53,415 nt of DNA from a virus. Both the position numbers and the translations under genes were made by a program. The stretch is taken from positions 1 through 53,415 of IMG/VR virus record IMGVR_UViG_3300032087_000658, one strand, 5' to 3'. Positions 8,220 through 35,560 of the stretch are shown in pieces. The notes beneath the pieces were generated by a model, which worked only from the letters and a program-made list of their open reading frames with translations, was not told where the DNA came from and did not search any database. Each line of letters begins with the position of its first letter. Positions within the stretch are counted from its first letter, which is position 1.

Positions 8220-9434
8220 TTAAGCTGTTACTTTTAGTTTATTAATAGCTTCAGGAAGAACCACTTGACCACCAACTCTTCTTCTAGCGATGTATCTTAC
8301 ATTACCAGTTGTAGCTTGTGTGAATGGGTCTCTTAAAACTGCCAAAGATACTCTATCAACAATCATGTATGCTCTTCTAAAGTCACCATAAGCAACTGGG
8401 AAAGCATTTTGTGCGATAGAAGCCATGTCTGTAGCTTCCACATATGGTTGACCAAGAATAGTATTTACCATACCACCTTGTAATGTCATACCTGCTTGGA
8501 ATACATACTGACCAGCTGTATCTTTTAGTTTTCTGATTGCAGAAAGTGTGCTTCTGTTAAATACAAAAGTACCATTTCTACCATAATCACTCTTGATGTT
8601 ATGCACTAATGTGATTAGGTTATCAGCAGTAATTGCTGTGTTAGAACCTGAATCAATTGATGCAACACTTGAGTTTGTCATAAAGCCTTCAGGCTTACCA
8701 ACAGCATTACCACTTACAAAAGCAGCACCTTCAGCTTTTGCAAATTGCTCTGCAAATTCTGATTGCATTTCTGCTTCTAAGTCAAAAACTGAATCCTCTA
8801 AGTCTTGCTCAGAAATATCTACTAAAGCGTATTGCTCATGTGCAGGTAGTTCTTCAAGACCAACAGTGTATCCTTCAGTTTCACTTCTTGTTCCACTTTC
8901 AGCTACCCATTGTGCAGAGAATTGACCAGTTCTTTTTGGTATTTGTATGCTTCTAGCACCTGTGCTTCTGATTCTTGCAATACTTCTGATTGGAGATATT
9001 TCAGTAACATCTTTAATCAGCTCTCTTACATATTCAGGTGGTGCTAAATAACCACCAGTTGAATCATTGCTTACAGTTAATGCTTTTCTTTCTTCAGGAG
9101 CAAGACCTTCAAGTCCTTTCCTGCAGTAAGTATCAAACGCATTCATATACTCATCTACTTGCTTCGTATCAAAACCTGAGTTTGGTCTTCTTATGACTGT
9201 CTCTAGTTTTTCAATTTGGCTTTTGATATTTTCAGCGTTAGCTTCAGCAGTCGTTAATTTTTGATTAATGTCTTCATAAGAATCCATCTTAGCTTCTAAA
9301 TTAGCTAATTTCTCATCTACATATGCTGTACCTTCGCCTTTTTCTATGCTTTCAATTCTTTGGTCATTTACTTTTTTAAATTCTTCAAAAGTTCTGCCCA
9401 TTTCTTGAATAGCATTTTTTATATCTTCCGACAT
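8220..9434 (-). CDS. Major capsid protein, HK97 fold
   Basis: 404 aa with the layout of HK97-type phage capsid proteins (Phage_capsid family). Residues 1 to about 100 are charged and coiled-coil-like (the delta/scaffold region), with KALTVSNDSTGGYL marking the usual cleavage zone. The shell domain follows, with APPEYVRELIK, the long E-loop-type stretch around IPKRTGQFSAQWVAE, FAKAEGAAFVSGN and a C-terminal P-domain containing ILGQPYVEA and AYGDFRRAY. An AGGAGAC site precedes the ATG. The protease gene lies immediately upstream, so the N-terminal region is probably removed in head maturation. Confidence 0.93.
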   Translation of the reverse strand: MSEDIKNAIQEMGRTFEEFKKVNDQRIESIEKGEGTAYVDEKLANLEAKMDSYEDINQKLTTAEANAENIKSQIEKLETVIRRPNSGFDTKQVDEYMNAFDTYCRKGLEGLAPEERKALTVSNDSTGGYLAPPEYVRELIKDVTEISPIRSIARIRSTGARSIQIPKRTGQFSAQWVAESGTRSETEGYTVGLEELPAHEQYALVDISEQDLEDSVFDLEAEMQSEFAEQFAKAEGAAFVSGNAVGKPEGFMTNSSVASIDSGSNTAITADNLITLVHNIKSDYGRNGTFVFNRSTLSAIRKLKDTAGQYVFQAGMTLQGGMVNTILGQPYVEATDMASIAQNAFPVAYGDFRRAYMIVDRVSLAVLRDPFTQATTGNVRYIARRRVGGQVVLPEAINKLKVTA

Positions 9435-9446
9435 AATTGTCTCCTA

Positions 9447-10379
9447 TTAAGATTTTAAGGTTAAAGTTAAGTTTTTTATGGCATCTACCAATTCAGCATT
9501 TGTATCAACATCACGTTGACCGAATGCATCAGTGACTGCTTTTGCAGCCATCTTTGCTTCTGAACGAGAAAGACTGAAGGCATCACGCATTCCATTTTCC
9601 CACTCTCTAATAGATATATCTTCACCTTTCACTGAACGAACAGTTGCCTGAGGGTTCATGGGAAAAGTTACTAACGATACTTCCATTAAATCTACTTCTT
9701 TGATAATACGTTTGTTACCACGTTTATCATATGAAACTTCTTTTGGGTTTACTCTAAAGCCTATGGATAGACCATCTAATGCACCCATTTTTAATAATTC
9801 GTATGCTTCTGCACCTGCTTGTGTTTTAAGTGCTAATCTACCCTTAACAACAAGACCATGTTCATCTTCTTTTATCTCATCAAAGACACCAATAGGCATA
9901 TCAGACTTGTGCTGATATAAAAGTTTTACGTTTTGTGGTTTTCTTCGTTTTAGGGATTTTAAAAAAGCACCTCTTTCAATAACATCATTACCTAAATCTT
10001 TGTTACCAAATACAGAACCATACCCTTCAAAAGTACCATAGTTCTTATCTTCATCTTCATCATGATAGGCTTTGATGCTTGACTTGATCTCTATGGATTC
10101 TTTTTCTTCTTCTTTAGAAGCTGTTTCATCAACAGTCTCTTCAGAATCAAGTTTGCTTTTGCCAAATTCTATAATGTAAGAGTCATCTGTTTCTTCTACT
10201 GCTCTTATATGTTTTTCATCATTCTCAATAGAATCTTCTTTGTTTGAATCGTACTGGCTAGTACAGACAGCTAATCGTTGGTTGGAATCAGTATATTCAC
10301 TCGCCATAGTCTTGTCTCCCATACATCTTTTTAAAAAACTTTGCCTAGACTCATTATTTTTAGGTTTAGGTATAGGCAT
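9447..10379 (-). CDS. Prohead maturation protease with N-terminal extra domain
   Basis: 310 aa. The protease domain (about residues 95-260) shows the HK97 protease/U35 signatures: GYGSVFGNKDLGNDVIERGAF, the catalytic His in LLYQHKSDMPIG, and the Ser in GALDGLSIGFRV, then EVDLMEVSLVTFPMNP. It would cleave the capsid N-terminus. Residues 1-45 form a separate short module (MPIPKPKNNESRQSFLKRCM) often seen on phage proteases, followed by a very acidic linker rich in Glu and Asp. No good ribosome-binding site is visible before the ATG at 10379. Located directly upstream of the capsid gene. Confidence 0.9.
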   Translation of the reverse strand: MPIPKPKNNESRQSFLKRCMGDKTMASEYTDSNQRLAVCTSQYDSNKEDSIENDEKHIRAVEETDDSYIIEFGKSKLDSEETVDETASKEEEKESIEIKSSIKAYHDEDEDKNYGTFEGYGSVFGNKDLGNDVIERGAFLKSLKRRKPQNVKLLYQHKSDMPIGVFDEIKEDEHGLVVKGRLALKTQAGAEAYELLKMGALDGLSIGFRVNPKEVSYDKRGNKRIIKEVDLMEVSLVTFPMNPQATVRSVKGEDISIREWENGMRDAFSLSRSEAKMAAKAVTDAFGQRDVDTNAELVDAIKNLTLTLKS

Positions 10380-10405
10380 ATTATCTATATATAGTACATC
10401 ATGGA

Positions 10406-11221
10406 CTAGTCTAGCACAACATCTTGTTCATCTGCATAAATTATTACGCATCTGCAATTAACAACGTTTCTTGCACCGCCTTTGGAATCACCTGCATATT
10501 CCATTGCTGCACCACCAATTATAAAGTTTTCGTCCATATCTACTGTTTGTCCATTTGCACTTGCATGAGCTGGTCTTGTTCTAGCATCACTTGTAGCAAC
10601 CCATTTTTTAACCATTTTTATTCCTAAATCTTGTTGTGTTTTTTTAAAATATGAGTGATTGCTAAAACTAGCTGCATTATGTGTTTCTGTTCTTGCAATT
10701 AAAGCAGCACGAGATTTGCTAATAGGTAAAAATTTTGTGCTTAATAATTTAGCTATTTGTGGCAATGTTAAATTATCTGCACGAGCTTCTTTTATAACTT
10801 TATCAATTCTATTTGCTAAACGCACACTTATTCCAGAAAGTATAAGTTGTCTGCTGTTAAAATAGTTGTTTACTACTTCTTCAAAATCAATGCTTCTACC
10901 AAATACAAAAGCTTCTTGTTTTTCCGTATTATATTTACTTTCATTATATTTATAGATTGTTAAAAATACTCTTTTGTAATGATTTAACATTAGTGGCATT
11001 AAATCTTCATTTAGTGATTGTGCTGCTATGTCTGCATTGTAAATACCAAATTCTTTATAAAGAAAAAGTTGCGTATTCAAAAACTTTCTAAATAACGTGC
11101 TTAGTCTTTTATAAAATCTTTTTTCTAAATTATTTCTAAGTATAAGTTGTTGTCTTGCTTCACGTCTTGCATTGATACGCCCAACTCTTAATGTATTAAA
11201 TCTTTTCTGATTTAGTTTCAT
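10406..11221 (-). CDS. Head morphogenesis protein, SPP1 gp7 / Mu F-like
   Basis: 271 aa. The first 150 residues are helical and basic. The C-terminal half has the Phage_Mu_F pattern: ALIARTETHNAASFSNHSYF, KWVATSDARTRPAHASANGQ and GGARNVVNCRCVI, including the conserved His and Cys-x-Cys. Proteins of this family are minor head proteins packaged with DNA or bound to the portal. The start overlaps the portal stop by 4 bases. Position between portal and protease fits. Confidence 0.88.
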   Translation of the reverse strand: MKLNQKRFNTLRVGRINARREARQQLILRNNLEKRFYKRLSTLFRKFLNTQLFLYKEFGIYNADIAAQSLNEDLMPLMLNHYKRVFLTIYKYNESKYNTEKQEAFVFGRSIDFEEVVNNYFNSRQLILSGISVRLANRIDKVIKEARADNLTLPQIAKLLSTKFLPISKSRAALIARTETHNAASFSNHSYFKKTQQDLGIKMVKKWVATSDARTRPAHASANGQTVDMDENFIIGGAAMEYAGDSKGGARNVVNCRCVIIYADEQDVVLD

Positions 11222-13248
11222 TTGCTAGATAATGGGTGTCCCTCAGGAAATAAATCTGTATCGTGTTTACCACCTCTAAACTTACCTGATGATAATGCAC
11301 GTAAGAAACTGTTAACACGTGCATATGCCCATTGGTCAGGACCAGTAACATTAGGTCTTACTGATTGTGGGTTTGTTCTGTATGCACCAACACCTCTACG
11401 GAATACAGCTTCTAACATTCTTAATGTTGCTCTTTTAGTTTTGCTGTTTCCATGTTTTTCATTATGGTCTTCAACTTTTTTCTTTAATGCTTCTTTAACT
11501 TTGCCTGATAAAGCCTTAACATCTAAATCAAGGTCATCTATTTCTATATGTGTTTGTAGTGCAAACTCTTTATCTTCTTCAGTGATAATTTGTTGTCTTT
11601 TCTTTTTAGACCAACTAAATCCTGCATCACCACCCCACAAAGCCCATGCAATTCTTCCTGCACTTGGATAACCTTTTTCACCTTGACTAAATCCTTCTGC
11701 TCTTTTGTCTACCTCATGTCTGCTAAAAAAACTATACATTCTTTTAATAGTAGATATAGATAAGTTTTCTTTTGCTATGATTGAGTTTGCTCTAGCTACA
11801 CCAACAGCAGTACCACCCCTGTTGTGTTCTTTACGCCATGCTAAACCACGTTTTGCTTCTGTAACCATTCCGTCTGTAGGTACAGTGTTAATATCAGATA
11901 GTGCTTTTTCTTCTTGTAATAAAAACTCTATTTCCTTATCAACTTCTTCTTCATCATAATCTTCTAAATCTTCTTCATTGACTGGGTTTTCAGGTTTAGC
12001 TACACCATCATCACCAAGTGGGAATAATGTACCTGATATATATAAATCATCTGCACCTTGCACTGGTTCTAAACCAATTATTGCTCTAGCTTCATTACGA
12101 GTCATTATCCCTTCACGTACAGCACTTGTAACGTTTTCATATATCTTTCTACGTCTTTCTGATAATGCTGGTATTGAATCTACGTCAAATTCTAGTGATA
12201 ACCTTTCATCAAACATAGGTATAAGCCATTCATTGAGATCACTGGCTATTTTTCTTAAATGTGGAATGATTGTTTCTTCATATAGAGCAAGTCTTGCTTC
12301 TGCTACATTTGAATAGGTTTGTGAATCAGGTACACCAACTAATTGACTTGGTACACCAAAACATAAAGCTATATCTGTAGCACTCATATTTTTTAAATTT
12401 AGAAAATCCATATCTTTTGGCGATAAACCCATCTCTTTCCAATCAAAGTCACCTTCTAACAACATAGGTCTACCAGCATTACCAGCACCACTAAATCTAT
12501 TGTTTAAATCTGTGAGTAACTGTTGTCTTTGTGATTCTGACAGGTTAACAGCAAATCCTGCATCATCTTGTGGTTTAAATATTACAGCACCACTAGGTCT
12601 TGCACCATTTTGTAATAAGTTAACATTGTGTTTACTTGACATATTAAACTGGTCTATTTCAACAGCAGCAGCACTCATGGGACTTAATCCATAATAATCA
12701 TCTAACGGATTCCATAACTTCACATGTTTTAATTCACTAAAACCATTATCTTGGTCTACTAAAAATGTTTGATGTACCTTACCATTAATTATGTATTCGT
12801 ACTTTTCAGGTATTGGATTGCCACCACCTTTAATATTAATTCTGTCAGGTCTTAATTGATGTAATTCTTTTGGTTGTCCTAACTCACTTCCTACTTTAAG
12901 AATGTATGCATTACCACTAAGAAGCACATAACCAAATAGGGAATTAAAAAACTCTGAGTAGGATTGTAAAGGATTGGGTCTGTTAAGTAGGTCAATAAGT
13001 GGGTGTTGTTCAATTATTTGGTCTCCTGCTTTTATAATGAATGGTACAGCACTTGCACCTTTTGATATTTCATTAACACATCTGTATACAATTGCATTTT
13101 TTAAATAACCCTCTTTTGCTAAGTCCTGATATTTATAAGTTTTTGCTTCTTCAGTACCAACGCCAAAGTAACCCATCATATTTGAGTTTTTTTGTTCTTG
13201 TACAGGTTGTATATTAAACAGTCTTTGTAAAAATGTTTGTTGTGCCAT
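11218..13248 (-). CDS. Portal protein with C-terminal accessory domains
   Basis: 676 aa, much longer than the usual 400-450 aa of HK97-type portals. Residues 1 to about 420 match Phage_portal: AIVYRCVNEISKGASAVPF, PNPLQSYSEFFNSLFGY, LSGNAYIL, SATDIALCFGVPSQLVGV and MTRNEARAIIGLEPV. An acidic linker follows (NEEDLEDYDEEEVDKEI). Then comes a domain at about 460-545 (AKRGLAWRKE, RGGTAVGVARA, RHEVDKRAEGF, PSAGRIAWALWGGD) and a last segment at about 585-676 ending EGHPLSSK. Those two are known to me as separate or fused domains of unknown role in phage head genes. ATG overlaps the terminase stop by 1 base. Confidence 0.88.
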   Translation of the reverse strand: MAQQTFLQRLFNIQPVQEQKNSNMMGYFGVGTEEAKTYKYQDLAKEGYLKNAIVYRCVNEISKGASAVPFIIKAGDQIIEQHPLIDLLNRPNPLQSYSEFFNSLFGYVLLSGNAYILKVGSELGQPKELHQLRPDRINIKGGGNPIPEKYEYIINGKVHQTFLVDQDNGFSELKHVKLWNPLDDYYGLSPMSAAAVEIDQFNMSSKHNVNLLQNGARPSGAVIFKPQDDAGFAVNLSESQRQQLLTDLNNRFSGAGNAGRPMLLEGDFDWKEMGLSPKDMDFLNLKNMSATDIALCFGVPSQLVGVPDSQTYSNVAEARLALYEETIIPHLRKIASDLNEWLIPMFDERLSLEFDVDSIPALSERRRKIYENVTSAVREGIMTRNEARAIIGLEPVQGADDLYISGTLFPLGDDGVAKPENPVNEEDLEDYDEEEVDKEIEFLLQEEKALSDINTVPTDGMVTEAKRGLAWRKEHNRGGTAVGVARANSIIAKENLSISTIKRMYSFFSRHEVDKRAEGFSQGEKGYPSAGRIAWALWGGDAGFSWSKKKRQQIITEEDKEFALQTHIEIDDLDLDVKALSGKVKEALKKKVEDHNEKHGNSKTKRATLRMLEAVFRRGVGAYRTNPQSVRPNVTGPDQWAYARVNSFLRALSSGKFRGGKHDTDLFPEGHPLSSK

Positions 13249-15168: not shown

Positions 15169-16206
15169 TTGAATAACTTAAACAACAACTACCCAACACT
15201 AACAAATAGAACATTTGGTCTTGAGTTAGAATTCGTTGGAGTATCACCTAGAACTGTAGCAGAGACTATCAACAACCTTGATGGTATTGAGTGTTACTTT
15301 GAAGGGTATCATCATACTACTAGACCATATTGGAAGATTGTTACAGATGCTTCTTTAGATGGAACTGGTGGTGAAATCGTTAGTCCAATACTAAAAGGTG
15401 TTGAGGGTGCTAAGCAATTAGAAACTATACTTAATGCCTTAGATAACTTAGAAGGTATTAGGGTTAATGTTCAATGCGGTTTGCATGTTCACCTTGATGT
15501 TAATGATCTCACAGTTGCAGAGATACAATCTGTTTATGAGAGATACGCTGACTATGAAAGCCAAATTGATATGGTTATGCCTAGAAGTCGTAGAGGTAAT
15601 AATTCTAGATGGTGTGCAAGTGTTACTAACACAGCTGGTAGAATCAAAAATGTAAGAGGTAGAACTAAATCTGCTCTTGCAAATGCAGCTGGTAGATATT
15701 ACAAAGTAAATTTACAAAGTCTAACTAGATACGGAACAATGGAGTTCAGACAACACAGTGGTACTCTTAACTTTGACAAGATTATTAACTGGGTTAGCTT
15801 CTTAATGGCTTTTGTTGAAAAAAGTGCAAAGCTTTCAAATCAAGTTAAAACTCCTAAAACAAACAGAGTTTACTCAACAGTAAGAAATGCAGTTGAAAAT
15901 GCTGGTTATACAATGGAGTGGAACAGAGGACATAACATTTGGACTGTAGAGAAAAATAACGAACATTTTGCTGCTTTTTCAAATCATACTTTAAACAGAC
16001 TATACAGCGGTAGCAGAGAGTCTAGCATTGACTTAAACATGTTGGTTGACCTTTTGATTGATAGAGGAATTTTAGATTGTGCATCACAAGCTAACTTCCA
16101 AAAACCAGTTGTTGTAGAAAGCAATGAGGTTGATAACGGATGGTTAGATGGTTGTGATAACAAAGTGCAGACATTTTACCAAGAAAGAGAATTAGAATTA
16201 AATTAA
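15169..16206 (+). CDS. Amidoligase family protein (TTG start)
   Basis: 345 aa, member of the Amidoligase_2 family (glutamine-synthetase-like COOH-NH2 ligases that form amide or isopeptide bonds using ATP). Seen: FGLELEFVG (16-24), the metal/ATP-binding stretch TDASLDGTGGEIVSP (59-73), CGLHVHLD (103-110) and a later MEFRQHSGTLN. The start is TTG: AAGGAG at 15157-15162 is 6 bases upstream and no ATG fits. It is paired with a gamma-glutamylcyclotransferase-like gene 14 bases downstream, a pairing described for amidoligases thought to modify proteins or make peptides. Substrate unknown; a cell-wall peptide, glutamate-containing metabolite or capsid/host protein are all possible. Confidence 0.85.
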   Translation: MNNLNNNYPTLTNRTFGLELEFVGVSPRTVAETINNLDGIECYFEGYHHTTRPYWKIVTDASLDGTGGEIVSPILKGVEGAKQLETILNALDNLEGIRVNVQCGLHVHLDVNDLTVAEIQSVYERYADYESQIDMVMPRSRRGNNSRWCASVTNTAGRIKNVRGRTKSALANAAGRYYKVNLQSLTRYGTMEFRQHSGTLNFDKIINWVSFLMAFVEKSAKLSNQVKTPKTNRVYSTVRNAVENAGYTMEWNRGHNIWTVEKNNEHFAAFSNHTLNRLYSGSRESSIDLNMLVDLLIDRGILDCASQANFQKPVVVESNEVDNGWLDGCDNKVQTFYQERELELN

Positions 16207-17728: not shown

Positions 17729-18005
17729 CTGACTCTATCCTCGCTTTGTTTATAACTGGTTCCATATACCAGTATTTATATTTACCTAAATACAAATAAA
17801 CACAAGGATAGGTTCTACCATTATGATTAGTGTATTCTTCCTCTACGCCATGTAATTCTATCATGCGTTTTAAAATTTCGTAAAGATATGGTTGTTCTTT
17901 ATATCTGATATACCAATGTGGTGCAAACTTTGCATAGCTTTTTGCCCAAATCCATTTCACTGAATTACAATGTTCTTCAAGACTTTTCCAGTCTACTTTT
18001 GACAT
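17715..18005 (-). CDS. Small aromatic-rich protein between ParB-like and PAPS-reductase-like genes
   Basis: 96 aa, rich in Trp and Tyr (KWIWAKSYAKFAPHWYIRY, YLYLGKYKYWYMEP). No family recognised. It overlaps the ParB-like gene by 14 bases and the PAPS-reductase-like gene by 1 base, so all three are surely co-translated and probably work together. Its size and residues suggest a small globular partner or adaptor; that is inference. Confidence 0.6.
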   Translation of the reverse strand: MSKVDWKSLEEHCNSVKWIWAKSYAKFAPHWYIRYKEQPYLYEILKRMIELHGVEEEYTNHNGRTYPCVYLYLGKYKYWYMEPVINKARIESDGKI

Positions 18006-19138
18006 TAGAAAGTTGGTTTACCACCCCAGTAACCAGCACCTTTTCTAAACTCTTCAGGTTCCATATATTTGAGAATATTACATTTAAGTGCAAAAGGGTC
18101 ACCGTTCCAAAGTGCCATAGCTAGTTTTTTATAAGAACCAATTGGGTTGGCTCGTAAAGAATTTATTTGTGGAAAGGGTATACCTCCGTTTGCTCTTATG
18201 TGTGCTTCTAGTTGTTTCTTGTAAACAAACTCTGCTCTTTCTGCAATCCAATCAGGTGCTTCATCTATACATTCTCTTTTAAAACATTGTTCCCATGTTT
18301 CACCACTTCTTCTACTTGGTTGACATGATATTTTTCCAAATTGTGTAACTGTCCTGATGCCATCAAGTCTATGACATACTTTGTCAAACCATTGAGGCCA
18401 TGCCTTTTGTGCTAGTTGTAGGTCAGGAATACCAGCTGTTGTCATTGTTAGTGGTGCAATCCTTAATTTATTTTTTGATCTCCCATGCTTTACCATCACA
18501 TCATATGCGTGATTATAATCCCATTGAAAATCTTGGATAGCTTTCCATATATCACCATCAGTCCAATCATAGATAGGTCTCACATATTTTGTACCTCTAT
18601 CATTTGGTTTTGTAATATGTCCTTTACTAGAAAATAAACCCATTCTTCTATTAGGACTTTCTTGCACTCTTAGACCGATACATGCAAACAAGTCTTTTCC
18701 TTCAGCTACTGGAAACCTTTCTTTTGTAACTAAAGCGTTTATGTTTTTTTCTTCTATCTGATAAGCATATTCAGGTGGTTGTCTGACCCATTCTTCTCTT
18801 GGTACTTGCTCATCAAAAATCCACCAGTAGGGATTTTTTCTATTAAAGACGTTTACCACTGGTTGTCCTGCCCAAACATGATGCATATTAACTTCAGGTC
18901 TATTGGCTACTCTATCTAAATATTCATATGTGTTTGGAAATAATATTTCTTCGTCACGATGTATGACATTTATAGGTAATTTACCAGCAGCATCAGCTGC
19001 CATGATTGCTAATTCCATACATACAGTAGAGTCTTTACCTCCACTTTGCGAGATCACAATTGTATGGTCTTGTTCATATAATTCTTGCAGTCTATTTAAA
19101 GCTGCATCAAATACGTTCATGTTAAGATTTAATTTCAT
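18005..19138 (-). CDS. PAPS-reductase-like PP-loop protein (IbrA/YbdN type)
   Basis: 377 aa. The N-type ATP pyrophosphatase PP-loop SGGKDS is at 32-37, followed by INVIHRDEEILFPNTYEYL, as in phosphoadenosine phosphosulfate reductases, and YVRPIYDWTDGDIW. The C-terminal half (CQPSRRSGETWEQCFKREC, YMEPEEFRKGAGYWGGKP) is typical of the IbrA/YbdN group, which carries DUF3440-like sequence. These proteins are not true sulfate reductases; they probably adenylate a substrate or handle sulfur. Paired downstream with the ParB-like gene. DNA phosphorothioation-like chemistry is possible, but no other Dnd or Ssp genes are present. Confidence 0.82.
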   Translation of the reverse strand: MKLNLNMNVFDAALNRLQELYEQDHTIVISQSGGKDSTVCMELAIMAADAAGKLPINVIHRDEEILFPNTYEYLDRVANRPEVNMHHVWAGQPVVNVFNRKNPYWWIFDEQVPREEWVRQPPEYAYQIEEKNINALVTKERFPVAEGKDLFACIGLRVQESPNRRMGLFSSKGHITKPNDRGTKYVRPIYDWTDGDIWKAIQDFQWDYNHAYDVMVKHGRSKNKLRIAPLTMTTAGIPDLQLAQKAWPQWFDKVCHRLDGIRTVTQFGKISCQPSRRSGETWEQCFKRECIDEAPDWIAERAEFVYKKQLEAHIRANGGIPFPQINSLRANPIGSYKKLAMALWNGDPFALKCNILKYMEPEEFRKGAGYWGGKPTF

Positions 19139-27825: not shown

Positions 27826-28033
27826 CAGAAGAATACATTATATTTAACCCAGCTAAAGTGCATAGACGATTTTTTTCATCTAGACCTTTTTCTGTGAGAT
27901 CATAATTTTGTCCATTAACTTTGATGTAACCATCTGTAATTAATGCAGTCAATAAATCACTAGGTATATCATCACCAAACATAACTGTTAATATGCCACC
28001 TAATCTTTTAGTTTGTGTTTTACTTAGTGCCAT
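27806..28033 (-). CDS. Small unknown protein after endolysin
   Basis: 75 aa with a winged-helix-like pattern (LLTALITDGYIKVNGQNYDLTEKGLDE). The start overlaps the endolysin stop by 1 base, making it the last gene of the lysis operon. Its end lies inside the opposing early-operon terminator. Function unknown; a late regulator is possible. Confidence 0.5.
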   Translation of the reverse strand: MALSKTQTKRLGGILTVMFGDDIPSDLLTALITDGYIKVNGQNYDLTEKGLDEKNRLCTLAGLNIMYSSEKKSST

Positions 28034-28476
28034 TAAACGTGTTCCCAGTCATTACCCTCAAATAATAATGATTCTGCTAATCTTCTTCTTGTTAATCCTT
28101 CAAGAACTTTGCCACCTGCTTTGTTCCATCGTTTCATCTGATAAGGCACATCTTCATACGCACCTTGATTTAAAACTTTTAACATAGTTGAAGCGTTTAA
28201 ATTTGCACCACCAAGATTAAATGTCCAAGATACTAATGCATCAAACTGGTGTTGATGTAATGGAAGCTTTACTGCTTTATTGACAGCATCTTCATAGACT
28301 ACTAAATCTTCTAGCAATAATTCTTCTGCACGTTCTTGTGATATGGTCATGCCCATTTGTATACCTTTAGTTGAACCATAACCAATGGTAGGTACATTAG
28401 CAGCACATAAATAACTTTCTAATTTGCACCCTTCAAACTTCTTGATAAGTGCGATTCCTTCTTGTGATATCTTCAT
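28033..28476 (-). CDS. Endolysin, glycoside hydrolase family 24 (T4-lysozyme type)
   Basis: 147 aa from the ATG at 28476, chosen because GGGGAGA is just upstream; the longer reading adds an unrelated N-terminus. It hydrolyses peptidoglycan at lysis. IALIKKFEGCKLESYLC and PTIGYGSTKGI give catalytic Glu15, with Cys24 and Thr30 at the positions of T4 lysozyme Asp20 and Thr26 (an E-C-T triad, found in many GH24 endolysins). SWTFNLGGANLNASTML and WNKAGGKVLEGLTRRR are typical later motifs. No signal-anchor sequence, so a holin should be needed. Confidence 0.92.
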   Translation of the reverse strand: MKISQEGIALIKKFEGCKLESYLCAANVPTIGYGSTKGIQMGMTISQERAEELLLEDLVVYEDAVNKAVKLPLHQHQFDALVSWTFNLGGANLNASTMLKVLNQGAYEDVPYQMKRWNKAGGKVLEGLTRRRLAESLLFEGNDWEHV

Positions 28477-28477
28477 A

Positions 28478-28873
28478 TTATTCTCCCCATGTTCCATCTT
28501 CTCGGACTTTGGCTTTCTTTGTGCCACCCCAGTATTCAACTGCGTGTCCTTCTTTAATAAGAATCTGACAAATGCTTTTATTATTTTCATCATAAGGTAT
28601 TCCCAGTATTCTTCCGTACTTGCCCTTTCCTAGTGATTGTACTTTGAAAGCACCAACACATAGTTCTATAAGTCTTTTTTTTGCTTTTAAACCTAGTGCT
28701 TTTTCTTCTAAATTTCTTGTGCGTGATTCAGGAGTATCTATCCCTGCTAATCGCACTCTTTGTTTATGGAGTTTGACATCAAAGCCTAAATCAAGAGTCA
28801 CATCTATGGTGTCTCCATCTATTACCCTTTCTAGTATAGCGTTGTATACGAATGGCGTGACCGATTCAGACAT
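28478..28873 (-). CDS. Thermonuclease-like (SNase) protein
   Basis: 131 aa of the staphylococcal nuclease fold: ILERVIDGDTIDVTLDLGFD, VRLAGIDTPESR (with catalytic Arg41 and Asp46), LGKGKYGRILGIPYDEN and EGHAVEYWGG. It may degrade host DNA or DNA released at lysis. No signal peptide, so it acts in the cytoplasm or as a virion-borne protein. It lies between the holin candidate and endolysin, with one base to the endolysin start, which is an unusual place for a nuclease. Confidence 0.85.
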   Translation of the reverse strand: MSESVTPFVYNAILERVIDGDTIDVTLDLGFDVKLHKQRVRLAGIDTPESRTRNLEEKALGLKAKKRLIELCVGAFKVQSLGKGKYGRILGIPYDENNKSICQILIKEGHAVEYWGGTKKAKVREDGTWGE

Positions 28874-29087: not shown

Positions 29088-29480
29088 TTATTTGTTCTCT
29101 GACACCTTTTCTTCTTCATTATCTTCTTTGTCATAATCTCTATAATATTTGATAATTGATAAAGTATCTCTTAAATATCTTTTAATTTCTGCCATATTCA
29201 TAGATAGGTTTTCGTACTCTTTACTGGTTAATGAATAATAAGCAATGGCAGGAGCAGAGCCATTCTCGTAATTTTCTAGGTACTCTTTCATTAAATCAGG
29301 AGTTAATATTTCCCAGTCAATATCAACCAATCCAACTTCTAGGGGTAAAGGTGGATGGTAAAGGGGGACTGGCTCTGCAATCGTTACGACCTCAACAGGT
29401 TTAGCAGTGGGCATCATAGAACAGTTTGCAATAACAAAAAGACATGATATTAATATTATGCTTTTAATTTTCATCATCAA
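29088..29480 (-). CDS. Outer-membrane spanin lipoprotein (o-spanin, Rz1-like)
   Basis: 130 aa. Signal peptide (KIKSIILISCLFVIANC) with the likely lipidated Cys20; the residue before it is Asn, not the usual Gly/Ala. A Pro-rich stretch follows (VPLYHPPLPLEVG), then VDIDWEILTPDLM and YYSLTSKEYENLSMNMAEIKRYL, seen in spanin-type proteins of many marine phages. It overlaps the i-spanin gene by 17 bases. The pair would fuse inner and outer membranes at the last step of lysis. Confidence 0.75.
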   Translation of the reverse strand: MMMKIKSIILISCLFVIANCSMMPTAKPVEVVTIAEPVPLYHPPLPLEVGLVDIDWEILTPDLMKEYLENYENGSAPAIAYYSLTSKEYENLSMNMAEIKRYLRDTLSIIKYYRDYDKEDNEEEKVSENK

Positions 29481-29859
29481 ACTGGTTTGGGTCTGTTAAA
29501 GCTATTATTTCTTCTTTGACTTTTTTAGTTCCCTTGTTCACAATATTTTCTATTAACTTAGGTTTGCTCAATGCTAAATTATCTAAATCATGTTTTGCAA
29601 AGGTTGTTCGTAGTTTGTTTACTTCTCTTACTGCTTCCTGTTTTTCTTTTTCTATTGCTTGTATCTGCTTTTGTGCCTTCTCTTGGTTGGCAAGATAAGT
29701 TTTAATTGATTCGTTTTGTTGTGCTATTGATTGTTCTAAGGCTATCTGATTGCCTTTTAAAGTAGAGATATTGTCTTGTAATCTATCAATATACCAAAAT
29801 GAACCACTAGCAGTAACTAGCAATAAACCACCTAGTATTATTGATAATTTGAATCCCAT
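29464..29859 (-). CDS. Inner-membrane spanin (i-spanin, Rz-like)
   Basis: 131 aa. One N-terminal transmembrane anchor (LSIILGGLLLVTASGSFWYI), then a long coiled coil of Gln/Lys/Glu repeats (EQSIAQQNESIKTYL, KAQKQIQAIEKEKQEAV), and a KHDLDNLALSKPKLIENIVN motif typical of phage Rz-like proteins. Located in the periplasm apart from the anchor. The ATG overlaps the cyclase stop by about 22 bases, which ties the cyclase to the lysis operon. Confidence 0.8.
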   Translation of the reverse strand: MGFKLSIILGGLLLVTASGSFWYIDRLQDNISTLKGNQIALEQSIAQQNESIKTYLANQEKAQKQIQAIEKEKQEAVREVNKLRTTFAKHDLDNLALSKPKLIENIVNKGTKKVKEEIIALTDPNQFDDEN

Positions 29860-31616
29860 GTATACACCTGTAATTTCTCGCTTTTACCTTTAGCTTCTAT
29901 TGGGTCTAAAGGTATCAAATCAAATTCTATCGCATTTTCTGTACTTTGACCAATTAGGAGATCAACACCAGCGTTTTTAGTTCCTGATTCTAATCTTGCT
30001 GCTACATTGACTGCATCACCGATAGCTGTGTAATCAAATCTATTTTCACTACCCATATTTCCTATAACCGCATATCCAGTGTTAATTCCTATGCCAATGG
30101 TTACTGGATTTATACCTTTGTCTGCTAAAACATAATTCAGTTCTATCATATTTTTTTGTATATCCATAGCACAAGCCAACGCCTTTGTTTCATGATTTTC
30201 TAAATCAAGGGGTGCATTAAAAATCGCCATCATGGCATCACCAATATATTTATCAACCATACCCCCATGCTTTTGTACTGCTTTTTGTTGAGCAGTAAGT
30301 GCTTGGTTCATAATGTAAGTCACCTGTTCAGGTTCTAGTGTTTCTGATAAAGCTGTAAACCCACGAACATCTGTAAATAAAAATGTTGCGTATCTTTTTT
30401 CTCCACCAAGTTTTAAAAGTTCAGGATTTTTTTGCAGTTGTTTTACTTGTCTTGGGTCTAAATAATGTTCAAATTGTTTCTTAATTTGTAATCTAAGTTT
30501 GTATTGTTCTCTAAATCTTAGATAAAAAGCTATAGAACCTGTAATAAACTGTGAGATCAATGTCCATGTTACATCTAACAAAATACCCCTGTGAATAAGT
30601 TCATATCCTGTATAAGCTGTTGATAACATTATTCCTAGACCTAATACTAAACCCCATGTTATGCCTAAAGTGTTCAATACAAGCCATATAAGGCTTACTG
30701 ATACAATAAATATAAGCATTTCTACAGCTAATGACCAATCAGGTATGTAAGGACTATCTTGTATTAAGATTGATTCTGCTAAAGCACTTTGTATTTTATG
30801 TGGTTCTAATAATCCAACTGGTGTTGCTATCTGTGGCATAACACCATTTGCTGTTACTCCTACAAATACAAACTTACCTGCTACATCCATTTCTTTTAAT
30901 GTAGTTTGTGGCGTATCTACCCAACTTATCCACTTACGACCAAGACTGTCTGTTTTTACTGGTGGTATTCCTCTAATTGATATTTCCTCTATACCATTAT
31001 CATTAGTTTTTATAATGTAAGTTCTAACATCAAATAATGCTTTGTATATTTGTGTACCGAATGATGGTATCCATTCTTTTTTAGGTGTGCTTACAAGTAG
31101 TGGGATTCTTCTAACAAGTTGGTCAACTTCGGTGGGAGCAATGGCTAATCCCTGTAATGTATTATCTGCTAGAGTGTTCAGGTTTTCCTTAACTCCCATA
31201 GATACTATACCATCAACATGGTTGCCTTTGACAACAGTACCAGTAGCTTTTGGGTATTTATTTTTGCCATCTTCAAACATTGCTATAACAGATGGTATGT
31301 ATCCCAAAGTCTTTGCAAAAACTTGATCTCCACCCATTCTATCTGCTTGTGGAAAAGATATTACCCAACCTACCCCTATAGCACCTGAATTAATAAGGTC
31401 TACTTGTATCTCTGCTAATCTTCTTCTTGGAAAAGGATAACCGCCTTCGTTTTCTACATCTTCTTCTGTGATGTTTAATATTACAAAGTTACCTGATGGC
31501 TCATATTTTTTTACAAAGGTATCAAAGGTTTTTAGTTTTAATATTTCAGTTGGTGTGCTTTGATATATAAAAGGTAAACATAAAATTAGTAGTATGGGTA
31601 TGAGCAATTTTTTCAT
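29838..31616 (-). CDS. CHASE2-sensor adenylate cyclase (class III)
   Basis: 592 aa. An N-terminal signal anchor (KKLLIPILLILCLPFIY) leads to a CHASE2 sensor (about 25-290), a periplasmic domain found only in signalling proteins. Three transmembrane segments follow (about 295-375) and then a cytoplasmic cyclase domain (412-590). Catalytic residues are all there: metal-binding Asp416 (FLFTDVRGFT) and Asp460 (DKYIGDAMM), adenine-specifying Lys456 and Thr530 (FDYTAIGD), and transition-state Asn537 and Arg541 (NVAARLE). The Lys/Thr pair fits class IIIb adenylate cyclases. It would make cAMP in response to a periplasmic signal. Full-length, not degraded. Between FecR and the spanin genes; no strong own promoter was seen. 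Confidence 0.93.
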   Translation of the reverse strand: MKKLLIPILLILCLPFIYQSTPTEILKLKTFDTFVKKYEPSGNFVILNITEEDVENEGGYPFPRRRLAEIQVDLINSGAIGVGWVISFPQADRMGGDQVFAKTLGYIPSVIAMFEDGKNKYPKATGTVVKGNHVDGIVSMGVKENLNTLADNTLQGLAIAPTEVDQLVRRIPLLVSTPKKEWIPSFGTQIYKALFDVRTYIIKTNDNGIEEISIRGIPPVKTDSLGRKWISWVDTPQTTLKEMDVAGKFVFVGVTANGVMPQIATPVGLLEPHKIQSALAESILIQDSPYIPDWSLAVEMLIFIVSVSLIWLVLNTLGITWGLVLGLGIMLSTAYTGYELIHRGILLDVTWTLISQFITGSIAFYLRFREQYKLRLQIKKQFEHYLDPRQVKQLQKNPELLKLGGEKRYATFLFTDVRGFTALSETLEPEQVTYIMNQALTAQQKAVQKHGGMVDKYIGDAMMAIFNAPLDLENHETKALACAMDIQKNMIELNYVLADKGINPVTIGIGINTGYAVIGNMGSENRFDYTAIGDAVNVAARLESGTKNAGVDLLIGQSTENAIEFDLIPLDPIEAKGKSEKLQVYTWDSNYQ

Positions 31617-31676: not shown

Positions 31677-31706
31677 TATATTTATATTAATTTGAAAGGA
31701 GATATT

Positions 31707-32195
31707 ATGAATATATTTGCAGTAGAACAATGCCCTGAACAAGCCGCTAGAGCTTTACCTGATAAACTGATAGTTAAAATGCCATTAGAAACAGCACAAA
31801 TGCTTTCTACGGCACACAGATATCTTAGTCCTACAGAGTATTGTGAAGAAAAAAACTTATACAAGAAAGCATATTACAACCATCCTTGCACTGTTTGGGC
31901 AAGAGAAACACATGAAAACTATAGATGGTTGCTAATACATTTTATAACTTTGTGCGAAGAATACTATTTGCGATATGGCAGAATACATGCTTCTTGGGAT
32001 AAATTATGGGATGGCTTAAAAATATTTCCAATGAATATTAAAGAAGGCAGCTTAACACCTTTTGCACAAGCTATGCCTGAACAATACAAAAACCCTGTTG
32101 ACCATATTGATGCATATCGTACATACATGATTGCAGAAAAGCATTATGCAAAATGGGAAAAAGGTAGAGACAAGCCTGTTTGGTGGTCTAATTAG
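31707..32195 (+). CDS. Conserved phage protein of unknown function, MNIF-type
   Basis: 162 aa from the ATG at 31707 with AAAGGAG upstream. Motifs: MNIFAVEQCPEQAARALPDK, LETAQMLSTAHRYL, NHPCTVWARETHENYRWLL, LTPFAQAMPEQYK, and an end with KWEKGRDKPVWW. I recognise this as a widespread phage protein in T4-like and T7-like marine phages with no agreed function; a resemblance to pyrimidine-dimer glycosylases has been suggested for layout only and I cannot confirm it. It is the only plus-strand gene in a 25-kb minus-strand block and has its own early-type promoter. Confidence 0.7.
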   Translation: MNIFAVEQCPEQAARALPDKLIVKMPLETAQMLSTAHRYLSPTEYCEEKNLYKKAYYNHPCTVWARETHENYRWLLIHFITLCEEYYLRYGRIHASWDKLWDGLKIFPMNIKEGSLTPFAQAMPEQYKNPVDHIDAYRTYMIAEKHYAKWEKGRDKPVWWSN

Positions 32196-33285
32196 ATTGT
32201 GTAATCTTTATTGTGCTACCCTCACCACCATTAATGGTAACAATGTTTGAAACACCATTTTGTATAAAGATAACAGTATAACTCGCACTTCCATCTATAT
32301 CTATTCTTGCTGAACTTTCTACACTTCGTAACAAAGTTAATTTTTCACCAGTATAGAAAGTTGTAATCTGTGTTTCTAAGTCTTGACCAAACTTTGTACC
32401 TTTAATGTTGGTTGTTATGGCATCTTGACCAAGCACATCTTCTTCTTTTGCAACTTCTAATGCATCTATAACATCTAGCAAATCTTCTAGGAAGTTGACA
32501 TCAAGATAGTTTATATCTAATTCTGTAAACTCTAATTCATCTTCTTTTAAAAAATCTTCTTCTAAGTAATCTATATCTAAATCATCAAAGTCTAAGATAT
32601 TTTTCTTCTGCACTACAGTTTCTTCACCTTCAATAATTTGTTCTTCAGGTGGTGTCACTATTAACATATTGTCTATGAGATCAAGCGTTAAATCTAAAAT
32701 TACTGGACGTGTTGGAGAATTTTCAAATACGGATACAGTTGTTGCTTCATAAGGTTTATTTAAAATAACACTACCTGTAGCTGTCATAACCTCTATTTCA
32801 CCACTAGATAAACCATATTTATCAGGTAAAAGAATTATAAGACTACGTCCAAGTTCATCTACAGTTGCTGTAAAGTCTGTTCCTCTAATGGCTATATTTG
32901 CTGTGGGTGTTTTAAGTTGTATGTTTTGTTTATCAATTTTGTTTAGATTGCCTGTAATAAACCTTGCTGTTCCTAATCCAAAGGTAAGAGCCATCTTTGA
33001 TTTAGATGGGTCAGGGTCATAGATATATTCGTCAATTAATAATTCAGAGTGTTCTGTTAATCTAACTGTTGAATCATCAAGAAAGGTAATAGCCATACGA
33101 CCATTAGTAGTTATGGCTTGATCATTACTTTGTATGCCGAGGTTTAATTCAGCTTGTAATGGTTCGTCTCTTAATATTCGTGCAACACCATTTAGTTCTG
33201 ATATATCACCTATATCAACAACCTGTTGCTGTTCCCCCATCGTTTTGAGTGATACAAATATTAGAGTTAGAAGTAGTAGTCTCAA
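32188..33285 (-). CDS. Secreted FecR-domain protein
   Basis: 365 aa. Short signal peptide (RLLLLTLIFVSLKTMG) and a FecR domain at about 40-170: GDISELNGVARILRDEP, NGRMAITFLDDSTVRLTEHS, LGTARFITGNL and the typical TPTANIAIRGTDFTATVDE. It is not the usual sigma-factor regulator with an inner-membrane segment; the whole protein is exported. The rest holds an acidic region of DLDIDYLEEDFL-like repeats and a beta-rich C-terminus. It overlaps the curlin-like gene by 71 bases. In bacteria, FecR proteins are often seen next to CHASE2 cyclases, so it may be the cyclase ligand; that link is inference. Confidence 0.82.
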   Translation of the reverse strand: MRLLLLTLIFVSLKTMGEQQQVVDIGDISELNGVARILRDEPLQAELNLGIQSNDQAITTNGRMAITFLDDSTVRLTEHSELLIDEYIYDPDPSKSKMALTFGLGTARFITGNLNKIDKQNIQLKTPTANIAIRGTDFTATVDELGRSLIILLPDKYGLSSGEIEVMTATGSVILNKPYEATTVSVFENSPTRPVILDLTLDLIDNMLIVTPPEEQIIEGEETVVQKKNILDFDDLDIDYLEEDFLKEDELEFTELDINYLDVNFLEDLLDVIDALEVAKEEDVLGQDAITTNIKGTKFGQDLETQITTFYTGEKLTLLRSVESSARIDIDGSASYTVIFIQNGVSNIVTINGGEGSTIKITQSN

Positions 33286-33949
33286 TTTTTAACCAATCCT
33301 TTGCAAGTGTTGATGATTGTATGATGTTAAATGTATTACTGCTACCATCTAAATCCATGTAAAAATATCCTGAATCAGATGATGTGTTTCCTGAATATCC
33401 ACTAGCTGTAAAGTTGATAGTGTTTGAACCACCATTAATATCTACAAAGTTAATAGCATTAGCATAATCAATATCAAAATTTAATTCATTAGAATCACCT
33501 AAGATTGTCCAGTCTAAATCAAGATAAGATGAATCAGCGTTTTCTGCTATTTCTAAATCAAATTCATTACTGCTTCCAGTAACATCTAAATATAGATTTA
33601 TGTAATCTGCACTTATAAGACCAGTGCTATTTAATAAGATATCCATAACATTACTATCACCATCAAACTCAAAGAACCCAGTAAAGTTATCACCATCAAT
33701 AGCATCTGACCTAAAGATATTGCTTGAACCAATCTGATTAATATCTAAAGTCATACTAATACCATCAAGGTCAAGAGCAGTCATAGTTCCTGATACAGCA
33801 GAACTACCACCAATGAGGTTAGAGCTACCAAGTTGTTCTAAATCTATGGAAGCAGTATTACCGCTTTGGTCTACATAAATTTCATTATCCGCGTATGTTT
33901 GCAATGCAGTCATCATCACAAACAGGCTCATTAATTTCATTTTCTTCAT
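33215..33949 (-). CDS. Curlin-repeat-like secreted protein
   Basis: 244 aa. Signal peptide with likely cleavage after TYA (residue 20). Then about seven imperfect units, each closing with G-[SDG]-S-N: residues 41-44, 74-77, 97-100, 125-128, 151-154, 173-176 and 202-205, spaced 22-33 residues. The first units (YVDQSGNTASIDLEQLGSSN and LDINQIGSSN) match the curlin repeat pattern with Gln and Asn at set positions; later ones lose the Gln and turn Asp-rich. It is probably a beta-solenoid protein secreted through the adjacent CsgG pore. No CsgA/CsgB gene otherwise. Two Cys near the end (232 and 244) may form a disulfide. Confidence 0.78.
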   Translation of the reverse strand: MKKMKLMSLFVMMTALQTYADNEIYVDQSGNTASIDLEQLGSSNLIGGSSAVSGTMTALDLDGISMTLDINQIGSSNIFRSDAIDGDNFTGFFEFDGDSNVMDILLNSTGLISADYINLYLDVTGSSNEFDLEIAENADSSYLDLDWTILGDSNELNFDIDYANAINFVDINGGSNTINFTASGYSGNTSSDSGYFYMDLDGSSNTFNIIQSSTLAKDWLKIETTTSNSNICITQNDGGTATGC

Positions 33950-34757
33950 ATTTCCAGTACCCTTTATCGTAACCGATAATAATAAGTTCTAATACAGCAC
34001 CTTCTATAGCTTTCATTAAGGCTATAGTAGTACTCTCGTTGCGTGAAACACCAAATTCCACTTCAACTAACTCAGTACCCATTTCTATGAATTTAAACAC
34101 ATCTTGTGACTGTCCATAGCTAAGTATTGTCTTACTAGACATTACTTCTACTAGTATTTCACCAGTAGCTACAGAAACCATTCTAAGGCTTACAGTGATT
34201 GTATCTTCACGATACTGCACACTAGAGCCTATTCCTAAATATCTTGCTCCTGCACCACCTGTGATTAGGTTACTATCATACGACACAACAGCACCTTCAA
34301 GCAATACACCTGCAAACAGCAAAGGCATTATAGTTTTTTTATCTTCTAATTCTTCTCTTGTACTTCTAATAATTTGTCTTTCTTTTGTTAAGTTATCTAA
34401 ACCAACTCTTTCAACAACTCTAAAAAATTCACCATTACTTGCGTGTTTTAATGCTCTTATTAATAGATTGCTTGGTGCTTGAGTTATAGCACTAGAAAAT
34501 AAAGCAAACTCACTGTTGCTCTTCCTTTGTCCTGTTTGGTCTGTAAAAGCAGTTGGATATACAGCAACTACTGGTTTTGTTTGTGGTGCTTGTACGTTTA
34601 ATAAATCCTGTGACTGTAAAGAAAAAATACTAGGCTTATCTTTGCTTTTATGTTGGAATCTTATCTGTTGCGTGTCCTCTATGACACTATTAATAGAACA
34701 ACTAGAAAGTAAAAGAACCAATAGGTAATGTGATCTCTGTAATATTGCCATCTGCAT
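33885..34757 (-). CDS. csgG-like: CsgG-like outer-membrane curli secretion lipoprotein
   Basis: 290 aa. Signal with lipobox LLSSC and lipidated Cys20. Matches E. coli CsgG along its length: VAVYPTAFTDQTGQRK, the constriction-loop region (NSEFALFSSAITQ, 81-93), RVVERVGLDNLTKERQIIR, LLFAGVLLEGAVVSYDSN, TGGAGARYLGIGSSVQYR, VNVSTGEIL-like VSVATGEIL, SSKTILSYGQ, and a last helix ending YDKGYWKY. CsgG forms a nonameric pore that exports unfolded curli subunits. By eye, the E. coli pore Tyr51/Asn55/Phe56 are Ser82/Leu86/Phe87 here, so the gate is changed. It overlaps csgF-like by 56 bases and the curlin-like gene by 65 bases. Confidence 0.93.
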   Translation of the reverse strand: MQMAILQRSHYLLVLLLSSCSINSVIEDTQQIRFQHKSKDKPSIFSLQSQDLLNVQAPQTKPVVAVYPTAFTDQTGQRKSNSEFALFSSAITQAPSNLLIRALKHASNGEFFRVVERVGLDNLTKERQIIRSTREELEDKKTIMPLLFAGVLLEGAVVSYDSNLITGGAGARYLGIGSSVQYREDTITVSLRMVSVATGEILVEVMSSKTILSYGQSQDVFKFIEMGTELVEVEFGVSRNESTTIALMKAIEGAVLELIIIGYDKGYWKYEENEINEPVCDDDCIANIRG

Positions 34758-35229
34758 CAGTTATTTTAAGTGTTATAAATTGTCCATCAGATGTGTATTC
34801 TATAGTATTACCTTCAAGTTCTATAGTACCTTCAGTTTGTGGGGTTTCACCGAAAAGATTATCTACAAGTTGTCTTGATAGTTGAGCATAGATACGTGAC
34901 TCTAAGTTACGCATAAATCTTGCAAGTGTGGTGTTCTCTTTATCTCTTTCTATTTGTTCTTGTAAGGCTTTAATCTCTTCTTTGATTGTCATCTTCCTAT
35001 TAAACTCTTGGTTTTCAATAGTCAAGTAATGTGAACTCGTGTTGATGCCACTAAAAGATGGTGATTTGAACTTATGAACTATTTGGTCTGCTTTTATGTT
35101 AATTACTAAAATACCAATCAATAAAATAAAACCAATAACTGTAACTGTGTAAGCAATTCTATTTTTACTTAATTCTTCTGCTTTACGTTGTTTTTTTGTC
35201 ATTTTTTTCTTAATCTTTTCTTTGGTCAT
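34702..35229 (-). CDS. csgF-like: CsgF-like curli accessory protein with N-terminal membrane segment
   Basis: 175 aa from the ATG at 35229; AAAGG lies upstream and a TTG six codons earlier is less likely. Residues 54-61 (FKSPSFSG) match the CsgF start FRNPNFGG, which plugs into the CsgG pore. Then RNLESRIYAQLSRQLVDNLFG and the beta end GQFITLKITDADGNITEITL follow the order of CsgF. Unlike E. coli CsgF, the protein has a basic cytoplasmic start and one membrane segment (about 25-44) with no clear cleavage site, so it may stay in the inner membrane and span the periplasm by the long helix at 78-112. Next gene is csgG-like. Confidence 0.82.
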   Translation of the reverse strand: MTKEKIKKKMTKKQRKAEELSKNRIAYTVTVIGFILLIGILVINIKADQIVHKFKSPSFSGINTSSHYLTIENQEFNRKMTIKEEIKALQEQIERDKENTTLARFMRNLESRIYAQLSRQLVDNLFGETPQTEGTIELEGNTIEYTSDGQFITLKITDADGNITEITLPIGSFTF

Positions 35230-35560
35230 CTCTATCCGCCTTTGCAATTTTACTGCTATCTATTAACTGTGGTACTCCTAAAATAGTTTTTATAAGGGTG
35301 TCTTGTCTTATGATTTCATTATCTAAGCTACGCACTCTATCAATTAATGCTACAAGTATTCCATGTTGTGAGTCAAGTTTTGTGCCTAATCGTTCTTCAA
35401 TAGCTGCTATCTGTGATTCTACTTTTTCATCAACATTATCAAGTTTGGTTTCCATGCCATCTACAATACGCATGATTAATTTATATATAAACCATCCTAA
35501 ACCAATTGCTGCTGCTATTGGAAAACCAACTTCTTGAATTACTTTTATTGCTGCATCCAT
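35210..35560 (-). CDS. Small membrane protein with coiled coil
   Basis: 116 aa. One N-terminal transmembrane segment (GFPIAAAIGLGWFIYKLI) then a long coiled coil (MRIVDGMETKLDNVDEKVE, AAIEERLGTKLDSQHGIL). Such proteins lie beside tail-fibre and lysis genes in many phages and are sometimes called holins or tail-associated membrane proteins. It overlaps the csgF-like gene by 20 bases. As it is encoded at the junction of tail and curli modules, either link is possible; the role is unknown. Confidence 0.55.
   Translation of the reverse strand: MDAAIKVIQEVGFPIAAAIGLGWFIYKLIMRIVDGMETKLDNVDEKVESQIAAIEERLGTKLDSQHGILVALIDRVRSLDNEIIRQDTLIKTILGVPQLIDSSKIAKADRDDQRKD

Follow-up and report, generated by a model that had tools for sequence, protein, structure and literature searches.

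Curli-type export genes accompanied by a FecR gene and an adenylate cyclase gene have already been described as a module of SAR11 podo- and myophages (PMC9599517). In the accessible text of that account the module, apparently taken over from bacteria, comprises small gene(s), CsgF, CsgG, curlin, FecR, (second curlin) and cyclase, and the gene before CsgF, present in one or two copies, is called a histidine kinase. Close counterparts are found in HTVC008M (gp014-019) and Melnitz (_99-_104), T4-like myophages whose genes annotated as CsgF, CsgG, curlin and cyclase follow the order of the locus analyzed here, with a small gene pair upstream; their cyclases are full length and 33% and 31% identical to ours, respectively. 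Alphaproteobacterial adenylate cyclases with the same combination of CHASE2 and class III cyclase domains, often with FecR adjacent, are longer (about 750 aa versus 592 aa). In the Burkholderia BiofilmReg operon, a LysM-FecR protein gene adjoins the gene of a CHASE2 receptor, as FecR and CHASE2 genes are associated here, but according to the accessible text of its description (PMC5192318) the output is a histidine kinase and response regulator rather than cAMP, and no export genes are reported.

The window (the whole stretch of DNA analyzed, a 53-kb linear virus record) carries the same module in a different genomic setting. As judged from genes alone, it belongs to a siphophage: tape measure, distal tail and J-like tail proteins and HK97-type head genes are present, and no contractile sheath was seen among its genes. 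The minus strand runs from the J-like tail gene through a small ORF to the module and on to the lysis genes (Table 1), with CsgF, CsgG, curlin repeat protein, FecR and cyclase in the order of the published viral module. The lysis and curli neighbourhood read by the earlier note from the sequence alone thus stands, with Rz-like spanins assigned through PHROG and lysozyme, CsgG, CsgF and FecR supported by Pfam or PHROG matches, as does the overlap of the cyclase with the i-spanin gene (29838-29859). In the window the module lies between tail genes and Rz, Rz1 and endolysin, whereas the HTVC008M and Melnitz modules include a second curlin gene and lack an adjacent spanin or endolysin. This siphophage placement appears to be new, since the accessible text of PMC9599517, which deals with podo- and myophages, makes no mention of a siphophage lysis region, of a type I variant or of a bacterial FecR/CHASE2 pairing.

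Table 1. Genes of the module and of the adjoining lysis region, from the tail-gene side to the endolysin
Feature	Position	Strand	Size and start	Match or remark
Small one-TM coiled-coil protein	35210-35560	-	116 aa	PHROG 18771/9829
CsgF	34702-35247	-		Pfam CsgF, E 3.5e-18
CsgG outer-membrane pore lipoprotein	33885-34757	-		Pfam CsgG, E 1.4e-49
Curlin-like secreted repeat protein	33215-33949	-	244 aa	Family HMM matches HTVC008M gene annotated CsgB
FecR-domain protein	32188-33285	-	365 aa, TTG start	Pfam FecR, E 5e-10
Pyrimidine-dimer glycosylase-like gene	31692-32195	+		Pfam Pyr_excise, E 9.6e-10
CHASE2-class III adenylate cyclase	29838-31616	-	592 aa, ATG start, frame open	Pfam CHASE2, E 1.4e-23 (residues 12-307); Pfam Guanylate_cyc, E 1.9e-20 (residues 410-583)
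Rz-like i-spanin	29464-29859	-		PHROG 739; overlaps cyclase gene by 22 bases
Rz1-like o-spanin	29088-29480	-		PHROG 812
SNase-like nuclease, lysis region	28478-28873	-		Pfam SNase, E 7.8e-13
Phage lysozyme (endolysin)	28033-28593	-		Pfam Phage_lysozyme, E 5.9e-47

Two of these genes call for comment. The curlin-like protein has a signal-peptide-like start and SN-rich repeats and yields no Pfam match, and thus no Pfam support for the repeats; its designation is based on the family HMM and on position. The glycosylase-like gene, on the plus strand between FecR and cyclase, is shared with L003 and L004 and absent from most relatives, and is an insertion rather than a part of the module. Elsewhere in the window, phosphoadenosine phosphosulfate reductase-like (18005-19138) and amidoligase-like (15169-16206) genes are found. 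A 676-aa portal ORF (11218-13248) shows, over residues 457-676, a 59% match to a stretch that in four Roseobacter phages bears the annotation major capsid protein, apparently a fused or misannotated domain.

The protein encoded between FecR and the spanins is, to all appearances, an active adenylate cyclase that would convert ATP to cAMP. In class III enzymes two aspartates bind metal, a lysine contacts the substrate, a threonine or aspartate lies at the adenine site, and an asparagine and an arginine act on the transition state. Alignment with the solved CyaC (1wc1) and CyaB (3r5g) places D416, K456, D460, T530, N537 and R541 on their counterparts, bearing out the claim that all class III catalytic residues are present. 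Among 89 aligned sequences, D416, K456, D460 and R541 are invariant and N537 is kept in 88. At position 530, 42 sequences have T, 46 have S and one has D, and this near-uniform T or S (88 of 89) fits an adenylate rather than a guanylate cyclase. The window protein therefore contains the residue set required of a class III (IIIb-like) adenylate cyclase by sequence comparison. The gene is under purifying selection, with NG86 dN/dS against near relatives of 0.07-0.15 for the entire gene and 0.03-0.12 for the cyclase domain alone. An AlphaFold2 model built from 42 sequences (mean pLDDT 86), used in place of a single-sequence model that was dropped at pLDDT 37, consists of one helix, the CHASE2 domain, three membrane helices and the cyclase fold, the last of which aligns with CyaC and CyaB at target-normalised TM values of 0.80-0.87. 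The CHASE2 sensor reported by the earlier note is borne out by Pfam, and the layout is that of CHASE2 receptors (N-terminal membrane helix, CHASE2, three membrane helices, output domain), with the sensor presumably on the periplasmic side. The membrane segments, given previously as three, number four: one N-terminal (2-17) and three after CHASE2 (295-316, 318-342 and the start of 350-382).

Comparison with viral sequence collections reveals that the gene is widespread in virome contigs. The view that such cyclases are very uncommon in phages holds for annotated isolates, where full-length relatives occur in 6 of 50,697 phage records (two of HTVC008M and four Melnitz phages), but not for virome contigs, where scanning with the window protein confirmed at least 595 related viral stretches. 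Assembly error and host contamination can both be discarded, since hundreds of independent contigs from many metagenomes carry the gene in the same order. The linkage counts that follow refer to testable contigs among the best 80 loci of each scan, and so lean towards near relatives. Upstream of the cyclase, FecR is found in 70 of 72 loci and CsgG in 41 of 41. A scan with the small membrane gene finds it followed by CsgF in every case (75/75) and by the combination of CsgG, FecR and cyclase likewise (43/43), and a scan with the CsgG of the myophage HTVC008M recovers the small pair (73/73), FecR (46/46) and the cyclase (18/18). Linkage of the module in testable contigs is thus essentially obligatory. 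Several relatives have different head and packaging genes in their flanks, which indicates that the module crosses phage types.

The small membrane protein is an integral part of this linkage. The product of the gene before CsgF, in the window as in HTVC008M and relatives, is about 83-116 residues long and combines a single hydrophobic segment with a coiled coil; the gene is often paired, and the 116-aa form of the window represents a fused or single version of the pair. No kinase domain was detected in the window protein or in the HTVC008M pair, so that the window locus does not show the one or two histidine kinases said to precede the module (accessible text of PMC9599517). Our small gene is probably the published histidine kinase, judging by position, the sequences themselves not having been directly compared; the label is then probably a misnaming, and its disagreement with the window does not bar the locus from module membership. 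Among the 50,697 phage records, the small gene has matches only in the two of HTVC008M and the four of Melnitz phages, the very set in which a full-length cyclase occurs. It also matches a PHROG holin marginally (E 0.006). The restriction of its phage-collection matches to genomes with the module, together with the 43 of 43 contigs above, disfavours a generic holin, and the protein is better seen as a part of the module.

A second scan shows that the cyclase is not tied to curli-type export. A cyclase from a virus-like MAG contig (L087/L088) retrieved 302 viral stretches, in which the cyclases adjoin HlyD, ABC and TolC-like genes and the gene of a giant FecR-domain protein. In testable loci among the best 80, HlyD is present in 25 of 32, OEP in 12 of 16 and FecR in 9 of 9, and the same kind of small pair lies either after the cyclase or facing it in 65 of 76. 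Since both export types carry them, FecR, the CHASE2 cyclase, the small pair and an outer-membrane export channel form the linked core. Our literature search returned nothing relevant on phage type I secretion together with a cyclase, or on CHASE2 together with type I secretion. A few contigs carry both sets side by side: L143 has two CHASE2 cyclases (8839-10533 and 1899-3848), one with type I secretion genes and the other, in opposite orientation, with curli-type genes, and L205 repeats this arrangement, with the contig ending inside its first cyclase. Five loci with closely similar viral cyclases (L161, L162, L163, L165 and L166) show no small membrane pair within the available flanks.

The bacterial relatives point to the same association. 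Alphaproteobacterial CHASE2 cyclases were found at 33-39% identity, and a FecR gene lies within about 8 kb of the cyclase in 10 of 20 of their loci, where about 0.26 would be expected from the 73 FecR domains in some 78 Mb of alphaproteobacterial genomes. Two of these loci (L126 and L127) present ABC, HlyD, the CHASE2 cyclase, TolC (OEP) and a giant FecR gene in one row. In a tree of 65 cyclases, a phylogeny that had been proposed as a check, viral and bacterial sequences fall on opposite sides of a branch with 99% support, and the viral side holds several deep groups; the tree was built by a quick method, with bacterial sequences of a single class, Alphaproteobacteria. A scan of genome contigs reached six loci, mostly virus-like contigs in MAGs. 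A Pelagibacteraceae genome (L303, G437:C11:2599-3144) contains a cyclase ORF of about 596 aa with no FecR in its short flanks; this ORF could be either of viral origin or a copy belonging to the genome. Beyond the siphophage placement, our analysis adds to the described module an obligatory small membrane protein, a type I secretion variant and a putative origin in FecR/CHASE2 operons.

We suggest that the cyclase is the active, cAMP-making sensor of a phage-borne export cassette, read through FecR and CHASE2, a proposal to which we give an even chance. The secreted FecR-domain protein, alone or as a domain within an exported protein, would be the periplasmic partner read by CHASE2. The FecR-domain protein of the window has a hydrophobic, signal-peptide-like N-terminus. 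The pairing is drawn from synteny across both export types and from FecR proximity in bacteria, which are evidence of association and not of contact, and it agrees with the FecR gene beside a CHASE2 histidine kinase gene in Burkholderia, as presented in the accessible text of PMC5192318. Under this proposal cAMP production would depend on the condition of the export process or the envelope; the position of the cassette between tail and endolysin genes in window-type phages suggests probable late expression; and the output would most likely stay within the infected cell, where it would adjust export or release and not work through a classic CRP regulon. The earlier note overlooked both FecR as the likely sensor partner and the membership of the cyclase in an export cassette.

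The genomic position of the cassette raises the alternative that it controls lysis, with the CsgGF pore, the small membrane protein and the cyclase acting as a gated pore or lysis timer, which would extend the pinholin-like function suggested for phage Melnitz (PMC9004378). The module does lie directly upstream of Rz, Rz1 and endolysin in the window, an endolysin follows the cyclase in 49 of 51 testable relatives among the best 80, and the weak holin resemblance of the small protein points the same way. Nonetheless, we consider this role unlikely: no endolysin was recognised downstream in L041 and L070, nor any adjacent lysis gene in the myophages HTVC008M and Melnitz or, with the models used, beside the type I secretion sets, and an outer-membrane pore is no substitute for an inner-membrane holin.

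The distribution of cAMP receivers bears on a different possibility, put forward in the earlier note, namely that the phage raises host cAMP and so reprograms metabolism or surface genes through CRP-type regulators. The cyclase is intact, many marine bacteria have CRP, and the host of the window phage could be among them; matches of its portal and terminase assigned it no host, the relatives being distant and their hosts mixed. However, in Pelagibacteraceae, the hosts of the cultured relative HTVC008M, the cNMP-binding domain PF00027 was found in only 4 of 99 genomes, some of them surely incomplete (95 gave no match), as against 10 of 14 in a control set, and class III cyclases are almost absent from the same 99 genomes. 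No PF00027 domain is encoded in the window or in six related viral records. The best-studied host group thus seems to lack the usual cAMP receptor, although the host of the window phage may differ; if it resembles the Pelagibacteraceae, a classic CRP response is unlikely. These data weaken the CRP proposal, which we regard as improbable. A cyclase that depletes ATP or overloads the cell with cAMP, so as to disturb nucleotide-based defence or host growth, with its sensor as a safety switch, would not depend on a host CRP receptor, but it leaves the strict linkage with FecR and export genes unexplained and strikes us as distinctly improbable. That the module is a passenger of little use to the phage, as its apparent acquisition from bacteria (accessible text of PMC9599517) might allow, is scarcely credible given the conservation of the gene, with its low dN/dS, invariant catalytic residues and presence in several phage types.

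Ever since their recognition in pelagiphages, viral curli genes have been a puzzle, and the cyclase, FecR and the small membrane protein can now be regarded as linked parts of the same module. The fact that the export machine is swappable points to export sensing as the shared function, and it singles out FecR and CHASE2 as a testable pair. More speculatively, and with rather long chances against it, marine phages might share a portable cAMP system for monitoring secretion, composed of a swappable export machine (curli-type or type I), a FecR substrate or partner, the CHASE2 cyclase and a small pair that includes or contacts a cAMP receiver, in hosts without CRP. The analysis also poses a clear question, namely what cAMP acts on in cells with relatives devoid of cAMP receptors.
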